Part shown: piece by piece, positions 26,288 through 29,961 of the stretch | Layout: each line of letters begins with the position of its first letter | Numbering within the stretch: position 1 is the stretch's first letter | Origin: Microbacterium aurantiacum | GTDB taxonomy: Bacteria > Actinomycetota > Actinomycetes > Actinomycetales > Microbacteriaceae | Direction: 5' to 3' | NCBI RefSeq assembly: GCF_002872075.1 | Contig: NZ_PGGU01000016.1 | Location: 193,009 to 257,008, forward strand | DNA length: 64,000 nt | Made by a program: the position numbers and the translations under genes | The notes under the pieces: generated by a model | Database searches by the model: none | What the model was told of the DNA's origin: nothing | What the model saw: only the letters and a program-made list of their open reading frames with translations

Positions 26288-27124
26288 TCAGCCGGGTTCG
26301 GATCCGGTCGCGACGGGGCGGCCCGGCGTGTTCGACCACTGGCTCCACGAACCCGGGAACACCTTCGCGTCGATCCCGGCCTCGGCGAGGACCAGTGCCG
26401 TGTGCGCGGCGGTGACGCCCGACCCGCAGTAGGCGGCGACCGGCGTACCCGCGGTCACGCCGGCCTCGGCGAGGGTGGTGCGGAGCGTCTCGACATCGAG
26501 CACCTTGCCCTCGGCATCCAGATGGCGCAGCGTCGGGAGGCTCTTGGCACCTGGGATGTGTCCCGCCTGCGGGTCGAGCGGCTCCGTCTCGCCGCGAAAG
26601 CGCTCAGCGGCGCGCACGTCGAGGAGCACTCCGGATGCCGGGAACGCGGCGGCTTCGTCGATCGAGAGCGCGCCGGCGCCGATCTCATCGAGCACGACGT
26701 CGCCGGGCTCCGGAATCACATCGTCCGTGCTGAGTTCGTATCCCGCCGCGGTCCAGGCGCGGAGCCCGCCGTCGAGCACCCGGATGTCGATGCCCGCCTG
26801 GCGGAGCAGCCACCACGCGCGTGCCGCGGAGATGCCCTTCGCGTCGTCATACGCCACGACGAGGTCTCCGGAATGGATGCCCCAGCGGCGCGTCGCCGCC
26901 TGCAGGGTGGCCGTCGACGGCAGCGGATGCCGCCCCTCGTCGGCGCGGCCGTGGGTGGAGAGCTCCGTGTCGAGCGGCACATAGACCGCGCCCGGGAGGT
27001 GTCCGGCGAGATAGTCCTCGTGCCCGTCCGGGCGGTCCAGCCGCCAGCGCACATCGATCAGACGTACCGAGGCACCCTCCGCCTGCAGTGCGATCAGCTC
27101 GTCGACGCTCAGCAAATTCTTCAT
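26288..27124 (-). CDS. Two-domain rhodanese-type sulfurtransferase
   Basis: The 278-residue protein has two rhodanese domains. The first (about 1-130) includes the RLIDVRWRL strand and GHLPGAVYVPLD helix; the second has DVRAAERFRGETEPLDPQAGHIPGA and the active-site loop CGSGVTA (Cys233). This is the layout of thiosulfate and 3-mercaptopyruvate sulfurtransferases. The loop CGSGVTA is usual in the mercaptopyruvate group. It likely moves sulfane sulfur to cyanide or thiol acceptors in the cytoplasm. Confidence 0.88.
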   Translation of the reverse strand: MKNLLSVDELIALQAEGASVRLIDVRWRLDRPDGHEDYLAGHLPGAVYVPLDTELSTHGRADEGRHPLPSTATLQAATRRWGIHSGDLVVAYDDAKGISAARAWWLLRQAGIDIRVLDGGLRAWTAAGYELSTDDVIPEPGDVVLDEIGAGALSIDEAAAFPASGVLLDVRAAERFRGETEPLDPQAGHIPGAKSLPTLRHLDAEGKVLDVETLRTTLAEAGVTAGTPVAAYCGSGVTAAHTALVLAEAGIDAKVFPGSWSQWSNTPGRPVATGSEPG

Positions 27125-27181: not shown

Positions 27182-27200
27182 GTTCTGCTCTGAGCAGAAC
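27182..27200. promoter_or_regulatory. Palindromic operator upstream of the PopR-like gene
   Basis: GTTCTGCTCTGAGCAGAAC is a perfect dyad with 9-bp arms around a central T, 38 bases before the regulator's start codon. The same sequence, lacking one arm's end, occurs at 28984-29002 before the clpP pair. Confidence 0.75.
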
Positions 27201-27238
27201 CGCTGGAGACCGCGAAGGACGCGGCGTTACCGTGGGGC

Positions 27239-27577
27239 ATGGCCGAGCTCCTGCACCTCCCGCGCACCCCCCGCCCGAAGGCGACCGACCCCGAGCCGCT
27301 GTGGCGCCAGCTGCTCGGCGACCAGCTGCGCCGACGTCGCCATGAACGCGAAGAGACGCTCACCGAGACCGCCGAGAAGGCGGGAGTCTCGCCGCAGTAC
27401 CTCTCCGAGGTCGAGCGCGGATTGAAAGAGCCGTCGAGCGAGATGATCGCCGCGATCAGCGGGGCGCTGGAGACGTCGCTCATCGAGCTGACCAGCGCCG
27501 TGGCCGATGAGCTGCGTTCTGCTCTGGCATCCGCCGCCGTCTCGGCCGGCCGAGGCGCCTTCGCCCTCGCGGCCTGA
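27239..27577 (+). CDS. PopR/ClgR-like XRE regulator of clpP genes
   Basis: The 112-residue protein is a single XRE helix-turn-helix (about 28-85: LRRRRHEREETLTETAEKAG then VSPQYLSEVERGLKEPSSEM) plus a short C-terminal tail. It resembles the ClgR/PopR group that controls clp genes in actinobacteria. From memory, Streptomyces PopR controls the clpP3-clpP4 operon and is degraded by ClpP1P2 through its last two alanines. This protein ends in ALAA, like an SsrA-type degron. It is convergent with the neighbouring clpP pair, and its own promoter and the clpP promoter share one palindrome. The regulator name is by inference. Confidence 0.75.
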   Translation: MAELLHLPRTPRPKATDPEPLWRQLLGDQLRRRRHEREETLTETAEKAGVSPQYLSEVERGLKEPSSEMIAAISGALETSLIELTSAVADELRSALASAAVSAGRGAFALAA

Positions 27578-27607
27578 CTCGCCCCGGCATCAGCCTTTCC
27601 GCGTGCC

Positions 27608-27683
27608 ACCTGCAGGACCGATGCACATCTGCAGGACCGAATCACGGCGTTTCGTCATGCATCCGTGATCCGACCCTGCAGGT
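27608..27683. repeat. Dyad element with tandem CTGCAGGACCGA (family C)
   Basis: CCTGCAGGACCGA (27609-27621) repeats as TCTGCAGGACCGAATCACGG (27628-27647), and the right arm at 27663-27683 is nearly its reverse complement with three or four mismatches. The element separates the PopR-like gene from the convergent clpP paralogue. Confidence 0.7.
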
Positions 27684-27692
27684 CGCACAGGC

Positions 27693-28289
27693 TCAGGGCG
27701 CGGTCCGCTCCCCCAGCACACTGTCGATGAGTCCGTACTCGAGCGCCGCGGATGCCGCGAACACCCGGTCGCGATCGGTGTCGGTGCGCAGCTCGGCGAG
27801 CGAGCGGCCGCTGTGCCTGGCGAGGATCTCCTCCATGTCGGCGCGCACCCGCACCACCTCGTCGGCGGCGAGGATGAGGTCGGGGATCGCACCGCGCGAC
27901 TGACCGGCGGGCTGGTGCAACACGATCCTGGCGTGTGCGAGGGCCGCCCGCTGACCCGGCGCGCCGGATGCGACGAGCAGCGCCGCAGGCCCGATCGCCT
28001 GCCCGACGCACGTCGTCGCCACCGCCGGGCGGATGTGCTGCATGGTGTCGTAGATCGCAAGGGCCGCGCCCGGGTCACCGCCCTCGCTGTTGATGTAGAA
28101 CTGGATGCCGGACTCCGGGCTGTCGGCGTCGAGATGCAGCAGTTGCGCGATCAGCGCGTTCGCGACGCCGGCGTCGATGCCGGTGCCGAGGTAGATGACG
28201 CGCTCGGCGAGCAGGTGCGAGTAGACGTCCATGATGCGTTCGCCGCGCGGATGCTGGGCGATGACGTTCGGAATCGTGTAGCTGCTCAT
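27693..28289 (-). CDS. ClpP-like protein lacking the catalytic serine
   Basis: The 198-residue protein follows ClpP throughout: FYINSEGGDPGAALAIYDTM, then CVGQAIGPAALLVASGA, ARIVLHQPAG and TDTDRDRVFAASAALEYGLID. Aligned to canonical GQAASMGAFLL, the catalytic Ser is Gly100, while the His (125) and Asp (170) remain. It should therefore be unable to cleave peptides by itself. The ATG overlaps the stop of the active paralogue (ATGA), so the two should be made in equal amounts and could form mixed rings. An alternative is a scaffold or regulatory subunit such as ClpR. Confidence 0.85.
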   Translation of the reverse strand: MSSYTIPNVIAQHPRGERIMDVYSHLLAERVIYLGTGIDAGVANALIAQLLHLDADSPESGIQFYINSEGGDPGAALAIYDTMQHIRPAVATTCVGQAIGPAALLVASGAPGQRAALAHARIVLHQPAGQSRGAIPDLILAADEVVRVRADMEEILARHSGRSLAELRTDTDRDRVFAASAALEYGLIDSVLGERTAP

Positions 28290-28930
28290 GACTTCGCTCC
28301 CTTCGGGGCGGATGCCGCAGCATCCGTTCCCAGTCCGACCCGCGCGCGTCGGCGCGGCATGACGCCTTCGATCGAGGTGACGATCTCGTCGATGAATCCG
28401 TACTCCCGCGCCTGGACCGACGTGTACCAGCGGTCGTGCAGGGAGTCCTCGAAGATGCGCTCGATCGGCTGCCCGGTGTCGTCGGAGATGAGACCCAGCA
28501 CGGTGTCGCGCATGTGACGCAGATCGTCGGCCTGCGCCTCGATCTCCACGGCGGATCCGCCGATGCCCGCCGAACCCTGATGCATGAGGATGCGCGCGTG
28601 CGGTAGCGCCCGGCGCTTGCCCGGAGTGCCCGCCGAGAGCAGGAACTGTCCGGCGCTGCACGCGAGGCCGAGCGCGAGGGTCGCGACGTCGTTCGGGATG
28701 AGCCGCATGATGTCGCGGATCGCCAGCATCGACGGCACCGAGCCGCCGGGCGAGTGGATCCAGAGGGCGATGTCGGCCGTGGCGTCCTCGGCGGCGAGCG
28801 CGAGCAGCTGCGTCATCAGCAGCGTGCCGTTGTCGTCGTCGAGTGCTCCGTCCAGCACGAGCACGCGCTCGTGGAACAGGGCACGGCGGGCCTCGGGGCC
28901 GAACTGCGGGACAGGATGCTCTTCGCTCAT
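28286..28930 (-). CDS. ClpP-family protease subunit with intact catalytic triad
   Basis: The 214-residue protein has the ClpP core with HSPGGSVPSMLAIRDIMR, GLACSAGQFLLSAGTPG (Ser92), ARILMHQGSAG (His117) and FEDSLHDRW (Asp162), so the triad is complete. The C-terminal tail (MPRRRARVGLGTD...) is longer than in canonical ClpP. It is the first gene of a two-gene operon with the serine-less paralogue and has the palindromic operator about 40-70 bases before its start. No clpX or clpC gene is near, so its ATPase partner is elsewhere. Confidence 0.88.
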   Translation of the reverse strand: MSEEHPVPQFGPEARRALFHERVLVLDGALDDDNGTLLMTQLLALAAEDATADIALWIHSPGGSVPSMLAIRDIMRLIPNDVATLALGLACSAGQFLLSAGTPGKRRALPHARILMHQGSAGIGGSAVEIEAQADDLRHMRDTVLGLISDDTGQPIERIFEDSLHDRWYTSVQAREYGFIDEIVTSIEGVMPRRRARVGLGTDAAASAPKGAKS

Positions 28931-28970
28931 GACCTCATCGTGCGCGGCTCGGCGGGCGAGCGGGGCGGGA

Positions 28971-29002
28971 TCTGCTCTCAGCTGTTCTGCTCTGAGCAGT
29001 CC
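28971..29002. promoter_or_regulatory. Palindromic operator of the clpP pair, with a second partial copy
   Basis: GTTCTGCTCTGAGCAGTCC at 28984-29002 repeats the PopR-promoter dyad in 17 of 19 positions. A second partial copy, TCTGCTCTCAG, lies at 28971-28981. The site stands 41-72 bases upstream of the clpP start and between it and the divergent mnt operon. Confidence 0.7.
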
Positions 29003-29029
29003 GCCCGATGCGGAGCATCCGCTGGTATG

Positions 29030-29047
29030 TTTTCGGTGTGCCTAAAA
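29030..29047. promoter_or_regulatory. DtxR/MntR-like operator over the start codon of the metal transporter
   Basis: TTTTCGGTGTGCCTAAAA has arms TTTTCGG and CCTAAAA that differ from a perfect TTTTAGG dyad at one place. It covers the GTG at 29038 and resembles MntR/DtxR boxes, so metal-loaded repressor would block translation and transcription initiation of this operon. Confidence 0.6.
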
Positions 29048-29961
29048 ATTCCGCCCGTCGAGTGATCGTCGCCCTTTCCGCACTGGGCGCTCTCGCCCTC
29101 GCGGGCTGCGGCAACAGCGAGCCCGACGCGTCCGACGGGCGGCCCGTCGTCCTGACGACCTTCACGGTGCTCGCCGACATCGCCGAGAACATCGCCGGCG
29201 AACACCTCGTCGTGCAGTCGATCACCAAGCCAGGGGCCGAGATCCACGGCTACGAGCCGACGCCCGGCGATATCCGCAAGGCCACCGACGCCGACCTCAT
29301 CCTCGACAACGGACTGAACCTCGAGGTGTGGTTCGCCCAGTTCGTCGACTCCGTCGATGTGCCGCACGTGGTCGTGTCCGACGGCGTCGACCCGATCGAC
29401 ATCACCGAGGACAGCTATGCGGGAAAGCCCAACCCGCACGCCTGGATGAGCCCGGTGAACGTGCAGCTGTACGCCGACAACATGGCCGAGGCGTTCAGCG
29501 AACTCGACCCTGCTCACGCCGACGACTTCGCCGCCAACGCCGAGGCGTACAAGGCGCAGCTGCAGGAGGTGCAGGACCAGTTGGTGAGCGAACTCTCCCA
29601 GCTGCCGGCGAGCCAGCGCGCCCTGGTGACCTGCGAGGGGGCGTTCTCGTACCTCGCCCGCGACGCCGGGCTCACCGAGGCGTACATCTGGGCGGTGAAC
29701 GCCGAGCAGCAGGCGACGCCGCAGCAGATCGCCGGCACGATCGAGTTCGTGAAGGAGAACGACGTTCCGGCGGTGTTCTGCGAGTCCACGGTGTCGGACA
29801 AGCCGATGCGGCAGGTCGTCGAGGCGACCGGGGCCGAGTTCGGCGGCACGCTCTACGTCGACTCGCTCTCCGAGCCCGACGGCCCCGTTCCCACCTACCT
29901 CGACCTGATCCGGCACGACGCGAAGACCATCATCGACGCCCTGACCGGGGGCACCCCGTGA
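29038..29961 (+). CDS. Manganese/zinc-type ABC transporter substrate-binding lipoprotein
   Basis: The 307-residue protein begins at GTG 29038, reads VPKNSARRVIVALSALGALALAGC and has a lipobox with Cys24. The mature protein is a cluster A-I metal-binding protein, with HGYEPTPGDIRKATDADLI, KPNPHAWMSPVNVQLY and FCESTVSDKPM near the metal site. It lacks the His-rich loop of the ZnuA in this window, which favours manganese or iron as ligand. The MntR-like box over the start supports manganese. First gene of a three-gene operon. Confidence 0.88.
   Translation: MPKNSARRVIVALSALGALALAGCGNSEPDASDGRPVVLTTFTVLADIAENIAGEHLVVQSITKPGAEIHGYEPTPGDIRKATDADLILDNGLNLEVWFAQFVDSVDVPHVVVSDGVDPIDITEDSYAGKPNPHAWMSPVNVQLYADNMAEAFSELDPAHADDFAANAEAYKAQLQEVQDQLVSELSQLPASQRALVTCEGAFSYLARDAGLTEAYIWAVNAEQQATPQQIAGTIEFVKENDVPAVFCESTVSDKPMRQVVEATGAEFGGTLYVDSLSEPDGPVPTYLDLIRHDAKTIIDALTGGTP

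Follow-up and report, generated by a model that had tools for sequence, protein, structure and literature searches.

Why are two dissimilar ClpP subunits maintained in many bacteria? This open question is raised in a particular form by a small locus of Microbacterium aurantiacum (RefSeq assembly GCF_002872075.1). The locus occupies positions 27182 to 29002 of the 64,000-nt stretch of contig NZ_PGGU01000016.1 that was analysed here (positions 193,009 to 257,008; hereafter the window). A gene for a small XRE regulator, popR, converges with a two-gene clpP operon, clpP3-clpP4, and only one of the two ClpP subunits carries a complete catalytic triad. The features of the locus are as follows.

27239 to 27577, plus strand: popR, encoding a 112-aa XRE/helix-turn-helix (HTH) regulator that ends in ...AFALAA and matches Pfam HTH_3.
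27566 to 27574, plus strand: C-terminal Leu-Ala-Ala of PopR, likely a ClpP1P2 degron.
27693 to 28289, minus strand: clpP4, encoding a 198-aa ClpP2-type subunit with the broken triad G100/H125/D174 and an axial-loop N-terminus.
27990 to 27992, minus strand: codon of ClpP4 G100 (GGG), where the catalytic serine would be expected.
28074 to 28085, minus strand: Glu-Gly-Gly-Asp of ClpP4 (E69, D72), where Pro-Gly-Gly-Ser is usual.
28286 to 28930, minus strand: clpP3, encoding a 214-aa ClpP1-type subunit with the triad S92/H117/D166 and without the axial-loop motif.
27184 to 27198, unstranded: PopR-type dyad TCTGCTCTGAGCAGA, perfect and single, 40 nt ahead of the popR start codon.
28971 to 29000, unstranded: tandem PopR-type operator ahead of clpP3, with dyads at 28971-28985 (two mismatches) and 28986-29000 (one mismatch), 15 bp apart.

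Both minus-strand frames match the Pfam family CLP_protease, and they share 4 nt (ATGA). An initial annotation had described the convergent layout and had reported one ClpP with an intact triad next to one without the serine. The observation is real and was in the main correctly read. When aligned with ClpP1 and ClpP2 of the same genome, ClpP3 retains S92, H117, and D166, whereas ClpP4 has a glycine (G100) in place of the serine but keeps H125 and D174, and the rest of the protein is well conserved. The NCBIfam cut-offs were reached by none of PopR, ClpP3, and ClpP4.

The broken triad is not confined to this genome. From 231 loci, 210 clpP3-clpP4 pairs were obtained, 185 after removal of duplicates and 183 after two pairs that group with housekeeping ClpPs (L227 and L229) were dropped. 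The other 21 loci yielded no pair under the rule used, including L075, whose ClpP genes are spaced beyond its limit. The ClpP4 triad is broken in 162 of the 183 distinct pairs, in 18 different combinations. Serine is lost in 125, histidine in 31, and aspartate in 27. In the order Ser-His-Asp and in one-letter code, the ClpP4 triads are AHD (66), GHD (37), SGD (26), the intact SHD (21), EHN and EHH (5 each), SHN (4), GHE, SHA, and WHT (3 each), SHS (2), and DHD, GND, ADD, SGE, WHD, FHN, AQD, and SDD (one each). ClpP3 of the same operons is SHD in 182 of 183, and the remaining one (L074) is gapped at the serine column. In five loci (L175, L178, L180, L183, and L184), the place of the ClpP4 serine is taken by Trp (four) or Phe (one), so that the site is filled rather than emptied.

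These counts depend on how the pairs were sampled. The 79 named pairs came by similarity to the ClpP4 of the window and overrepresent the Ser-less clade, with a broken triad in 75 and an intact one in 4. The pairs retrieved with ClpP3 as a query carry no selection on ClpP4, and 60 of these 77 are broken and 17 intact (five of 82 loci were excluded); their matches were picked by hand for fetching, chiefly by score, and form a sample rather than a census. A draw of 30 Streptomycetaceae loci gave SGD in 22, SGE in 1, AHD in 6, and GHD in 1. The initial annotation had implied that the Ser-less partner sets this module apart from Streptomyces. This contrast has to be revised, as the Streptomyces ClpP4 triad is broken too: the histidine is replaced by glycine in S. 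fungicidicus, the one named Streptomyces analysed, and is missing in 23 of the 30 loci, the other seven having lost the serine. Among plasmid-borne ClpP4s, which lie outside the counted pairs, that of Tsukamurella is AHD, that of Prescottella equi GHQ, and that of S. fungicidicus SGD. Since Streptomyces shares the defect, an apparently dead ClpP4, as judged from the triads, is the rule for this system, typical rather than peculiar to the genome of the window.

To estimate how often the triad was lost, the triad columns were masked and a tree was built from 55 representatives plus six outgroup rows, with the root placed on single ClpPs. Without regain, this tree gives 17 separate losses, 10 when branches below 80 are merged and 6 when those below 95 are merged; with regain allowed, at least 9 changes between intact and broken are needed. 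These numbers come from a quick tree whose outgroup does not fall cleanly on one side of a branch and whose 55 rows included L227 and L229, both intact. At the ClpP4 site, the serine codons are all TCN and the alanine codons GCN; as a single base separates the two, regain of the serine is conceivable. The residue lost differs between clades: histidine in Streptomyces, aspartate in family f29, serine in the clade of the window, and aspartate together with, in part, serine in family f94. Different residues lost in different clades point to separate events, whatever their exact number. Across the actinobacterial relatives analysed, ClpP4 thus seems to have lost its cutting site repeatedly, in independent events and in different ways, with its partner staying intact.

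A triad that is lost in so many ways would also be expected of a dispensable subunit that is merely decaying toward a pseudogene. The ratio of nonsynonymous to synonymous substitution (dN/dS), taken as a simple pairwise count, makes this explanation highly improbable. Among the 23 nearest relatives, the median was 0.094 for ClpP4 against 0.143 for ClpP3; the corresponding values were 0.157 and 0.175 for 42 named AHD pairs and 0.209 and 0.216 for 26 SGD pairs. The 21 intact pairs gave 0.438 and 0.527, values that are distrusted as the sequences are very divergent. ClpP4 is therefore under purifying selection and at least as constrained as ClpP3 in each set. In the three sets with a broken triad, its median stays between 0.09 and 0.21, never above that of ClpP3, and in the 183 pairs the ClpP4 frame is complete and the operon tightly packed. 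This pattern, in which one subunit was disarmed several times and its partner in no readable case, is a natural experiment on the two-ClpP question. It suggests that ClpP2-type catalysis is dispensable and that the ClpP2-type structure is not.

The initial annotation had compared the module with the PopR-clpP3-clpP4 system of Streptomyces, and the ClpP phylogeny, gene order, operator, and C-terminal Ala-Ala bear the comparison out. A tree of 85 ClpPs included 27 representatives each of ClpP3 and ClpP4. The 27 ClpP3s form one side of a branch (support 98, starred), and the 27 ClpP4s do likewise (support 94). ClpP3 groups with ClpP1, and ClpP4 groups with ClpP2 as well as with single ClpPs from other actinobacteria, both on starred branches. 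One row from the Streptomycetaceae draw (L113) lies inside both the ClpP3 and the ClpP4 side. The named S. fungicidicus record, which is outside the tree, has the same clpP3-clpP4-regulator order with the triads SHD and SGD. On these grounds, the assignment of the three proteins as PopR, ClpP3, and ClpP4, and of the module as the PopR-clpP3-clpP4 operon of Streptomyces, is supported. The module would then trace back to an old duplication event, that of a clpP1-clpP2 pair.

The same gene order, with two ClpPs and a convergent HTH regulator, is also found on plasmid-labelled records of 386 kb to 927 kb, from Tsukamurella (L275, NZ_LR134452.1), Prescottella equi (L276, NZ_CP121764.1), and S. fungicidicus (L274, NZ_CP023408.1). 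Because of these plasmid-borne copies, the module may be mobile. Its distribution within the genus of the window appears patchy. Four of 13 genomes, its own included, have at least four ClpP matches, and nine have two.

Could the pair simply be the housekeeping protease? The initial annotation had set it apart from ClpP1P2, a view that depends on a second clpP pair elsewhere in the genome. Such a pair exists. The genome has four CLP_protease matches, namely the module pair and clpP1P2 on contig C33 (C33:97151-98372), and the ClpP3/ClpP4 pair is not the housekeeping one because of this separate pair. The ClpP1 and ClpP2 of this genome group in the tree with the housekeeping subunits of others. 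The ClpB_D2-small model, which covers the C-terminal domain of ClpB, ClpC, and ClpX, has three matches, at C7:76160, on C22, and on C33. None of them is near the module. The claim that no Clp ATPase is linked to the operon is borne out for this model, the sole one used, with the nearest match about 144 kb away. The match on C33 is probably clpX, judging from its position and length. With clpP1P2 and a ClpX-like ATPase end together on C33 and nothing found in its favour, the housekeeping reading is rejected, and we give it virtually no probability. The housekeeping subunits also serve as a control for the triads. ClpP1 and ClpP2 are SHD in 40 of 40 subunits from 20 genomes and in 42 of 42 with the genome of the window. 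In the set analysed, nineteen of these 20 genomes carry the module (ClpP4 broken in 15, intact in four); from the remaining genome, L227, one of the two excluded pairs, was the only one obtained.

The probable control of the operon can be read from the regulator and its sites. Instead of the one shared operator that had been proposed, the same motif is placed separately ahead of popR and ahead of clpP3. The motif TCTGCY-3N-RGCAGA, with up to two mismatches, occurs within 250 nt ahead of clpP3 in 175 of 181 loci (about 7 in shuffles) and ahead of popR in 88 of 171 relatives (about 6 in shuffles). Upstream of clpP3 it is doubled. A second dyad with up to five mismatches of 12 stands at plus or minus 15 in 150 of the 175 loci; at nine other offsets, taken as controls, the counts were between 2 and 30. 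No doubling was seen upstream of popR, where a second dyad stands in 16 of 88, against 0 to 17 at control offsets. In the window, the operator ahead of clpP3 consists of two dyads 15 bp apart, the same doubled form as TCTGCC-3N-GGC...TCTGCC-3N-GGCAGA, the S. lividans PopR site according to a passage of a 2022 review (PMC9775585). Genome-wide, the motif occurs no less often than expected by chance, with 3 perfect sites and 3 for the reversed control pattern. Because the reversed motif is equally frequent, the operator pattern by itself is no evidence; however, its placement ahead of clpP3 across relatives is not chance. The double site may serve the activation of clpP3 and the single site feedback on popR.

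A PopR-like gene lies on the opposite strand of the fetched stretch in 173 of the 183 pairs, no more than 300 nt away from clpP4 in 149 of them. An Ala-Ala end, a degradation signal quoted in a passage of PMC9775585, is present in 160 of these 173 PopRs (as LAA in 148), but in only 11 of 185 ClpP4s and 12 of 185 ClpP3s. The PopR of the window ends in Ala-Ala as well. The related regulator ClgR was considered in place of PopR. It is disfavoured by the NCBIfam ClgR model, which the protein misses with 63.5 bits against a cut-off of 170, and by gene order and operator; a regulator tree, which is poorly supported, did not separate the two and puts five ClgR-like proteins inside the PopR rows.

We consider it likely that the module encodes a backup Clp core under PopR control, with ClpP3 as the cutting subunit and ClpP4 as a non-catalytic structural one that most likely faces ATPases encoded elsewhere. 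Gene order, ClpP clades, triads, the degron-like end, the operator, and the constraint on ClpP4 are read directly from the sequence. As long as the housekeeping ClpP1P2 works, PopR would be degraded via its C-terminal Ala-Ala and the operon would be off. Upon failure of ClpP1P2, PopR would build up, bind the tandem dyads ahead of clpP3, and turn on clpP3-clpP4. Activation of clpP3clpP4 by PopR and its degradation by ClpP1P2 are described for Streptomyces in passages of PMC9765437 and PMC12607617. ClpP3 and ClpP4 would then assemble into one core, where cutting would fall to the ClpP1 paralogue ClpP3 and none to the ClpP2 paralogue ClpP4, which would perhaps form the ATPase-facing side. We infer regulation as in Streptomyces, joint assembly, inactivity of ClpP4, and docking by ClpP4.

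Precedents for such a division of labour come from ClpP1P2, as far as the cited passages go. In Streptomyces, a Ser-to-Ala ClpP2 keeps full activity and ClpP2 recruits the ATPases (PMC12607617, PMC9765437). In M. tuberculosis, the chaperones need only the ClpP2 face, and an active ClpP1 with an inactive ClpP2 fully processes the propeptides (PMC4416901). The axial-loop motif is found in 172 of 183 ClpP4s and in none of 183 ClpP3s. ClpP4 may therefore face the ATPase, given its kinship with ClpP2, this motif, and the docking reported for ClpP2 only.

Several points weigh against this proposal. The ATPase-docking pocket, which we take to be at E. coli positions 60/82/90/112, reads Q/H/T/A in the ClpP4 of the window, while ClpP3 is hydrophobic at 62, 82, 90, and 92. 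The pocket of ClpP4 is thus not clearly superior to that of ClpP3, and docking by ClpP4 rests on paralogy and the N-terminus. The structure models are of monomers, and one of five is good for ClpP4 (predicted local distance difference test score, pLDDT, 83 versus 46-59); it confirms the ClpP fold and nothing beyond. ClpP4 keeps all three triad residues in 21 of 183 pairs, and inactivity is therefore not required everywhere. In M. tuberculosis, protein degradation in vitro was hardly slowed by inactivating either subunit, as stated in part of PMC4416901; this tolerance gives no reason to see ClpP2, rather than ClpP1, as the subunit whose cutting can be spared.

The dead subunit could also be a damper or spacer that determines how many active sites a core has, so as to keep an emergency protease slow or selective. 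Such a role was considered for the cyanobacterial ClpP3/R, for which restoring the site of Synechococcus ClpR made the complex no faster, and the authors concluded that neighbouring active subunits in some way restrict activity (passage in PMC4673316). The same result suggests that a core is not necessarily slowed by dead sites. So does a chloroplast CLPP3 that complements fully when inactive, although an inactive CLPP5 does not complement (PMC6508832, in part). The 21 of 183 ClpP4s that retain the triad also speak against a damper. We regard the damper as possible, with perhaps a minority share of the probability; sequence does not separate it from the backup core with a structural ClpP4.

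The emptied site itself may have been changed further. The SPGGS loop presumably corresponds to E. coli positions 65-69, beside the active site. It is retained in 21 of 21 ClpP2s and nearly all ClpP3s. In 100 of 183 ClpP4s, that of the window included, it reads [CS]EGGD, and the pair of E69 and D72 is found in none of the 21 ClpP2s. Furthermore, 105 of 125 Ser-less ClpP4s keep both His and Asp, as if these were still selected. One explanation is that, at least in the EGGD-loop clade, the old site was repurposed and the acidic pair with His and Asp binds a ligand, an ion, or a neighbouring subunit. This is somewhat unlikely, as His (in Streptomyces) or Asp is lost where the acidic pair is absent, and four acidic-loop members (three EGGD, one DGGD) still bear the serine. 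Because of these four, the loop change and the loss of Ser are separable. A combined account, which we advance tentatively, is that ClpP4 is a recurrent pseudo-subunit. Following the ancient clpP1-clpP2 duplication, selection for distinct tasks, with ClpP3 cutting and ClpP4 holding and presenting, would have permitted or driven repeated destruction of the ClpP4 triad through different residues. The emptied site of one large clade, with its new Glu/Asp pair and the His and Asp that it kept, would have been reused to gate the backup core, for example by binding a ligand or ion.

The module can be compared with several known systems. It resembles Streptomyces PopR-clpP3-clpP4 in gene order (that of S. 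fungicidicus), the tandem TCTGCY-3N-RGCAGA operator, the Ala-Ala end, and the ClpP3 and ClpP4 clades shared with Streptomycetaceae pairs; the likeness to the S. lividans and S. hawaiiensis system is drawn via S. fungicidicus and the Streptomycetaceae sequences. The two differ in ClpP4, which has Gly for Ser and an EGGD loop in the window, but Gly for His and SPGGS in S. fungicidicus. The ClpP3/ClpR complexes of cyanobacteria, plastids, and apicoplasts likewise pair an inactive ClpP paralogue with an active one, according to passages of PMC4673316 and PMC7966870. However, ClpR, compared here by description, is described as being without the triad. The ClpP4 of the window lacks Ser and keeps His and Asp; mostly one residue is lost in this system, which one depending on the lineage, and the system is actinobacterial and PopR-controlled. 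ClpP1P2 of M. tuberculosis and Streptomyces also has two unlike subunits with unequal roles, next to which ClpP3 and ClpP4 are placed in the tree, but the triad is intact in all 42 ClpP1 and ClpP2 subunits analysed. Listeria, too, has two ClpPs, and the triad of its ClpP1 is unusual, with Asn in place of Asp, as mentioned in PMC9765437. This triad becomes active in the complex, unlike Gly or Ala for Ser, which provide no such nucleophile.

These comparisons bear on the Streptomyces ClpP3P4 core, which is an acyldepsipeptide-insensitive backup according to part of PMC12607617. Its reading would change if ClpP4 is, as seems probable, non-cutting, and ClpP3 would therefore hold the sole sites for active-site drugs. 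No description of a ClpP4 without a complete triad was found in the open literature among the matches listed, which were judged mostly by title and the start of the abstract, the original reports on the Streptomyces system, from 2000 and 2002, being outside this scope. The available portions of PMC12607617, PMC9765437 (all five ClpP4 mentions), PMC9775585, and PMC4416901 make no statement of an incomplete ClpP4 triad, and those of PMC10149685, PMC4673316, PMC7966870, PMC8182300, and PMC6508832 likewise make none. What appears to be new is the pattern of repeated ClpP4 inactivation in actinobacteria, with priority not established; the module itself is of a known kind.

Two neighbouring genes share upstream regions with the module. 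A gene for a ZnuA-type lipoprotein of a metal ATP-binding cassette transporter (PF01297; open reading frame 29008-29961, start perhaps 29038) is divergent from clpP3. The clpP3 operator sits between the two (28971-29045), and PopR may act on the promoter of the ZnuA-type gene too. On the other side, a rhodanese-domain gene (26288-27124) is divergent from popR, with the popR dyad between them. Its product resembles 3-mercaptopyruvate sulfurtransferase, with a score under the corresponding NCBIfam cut-off.

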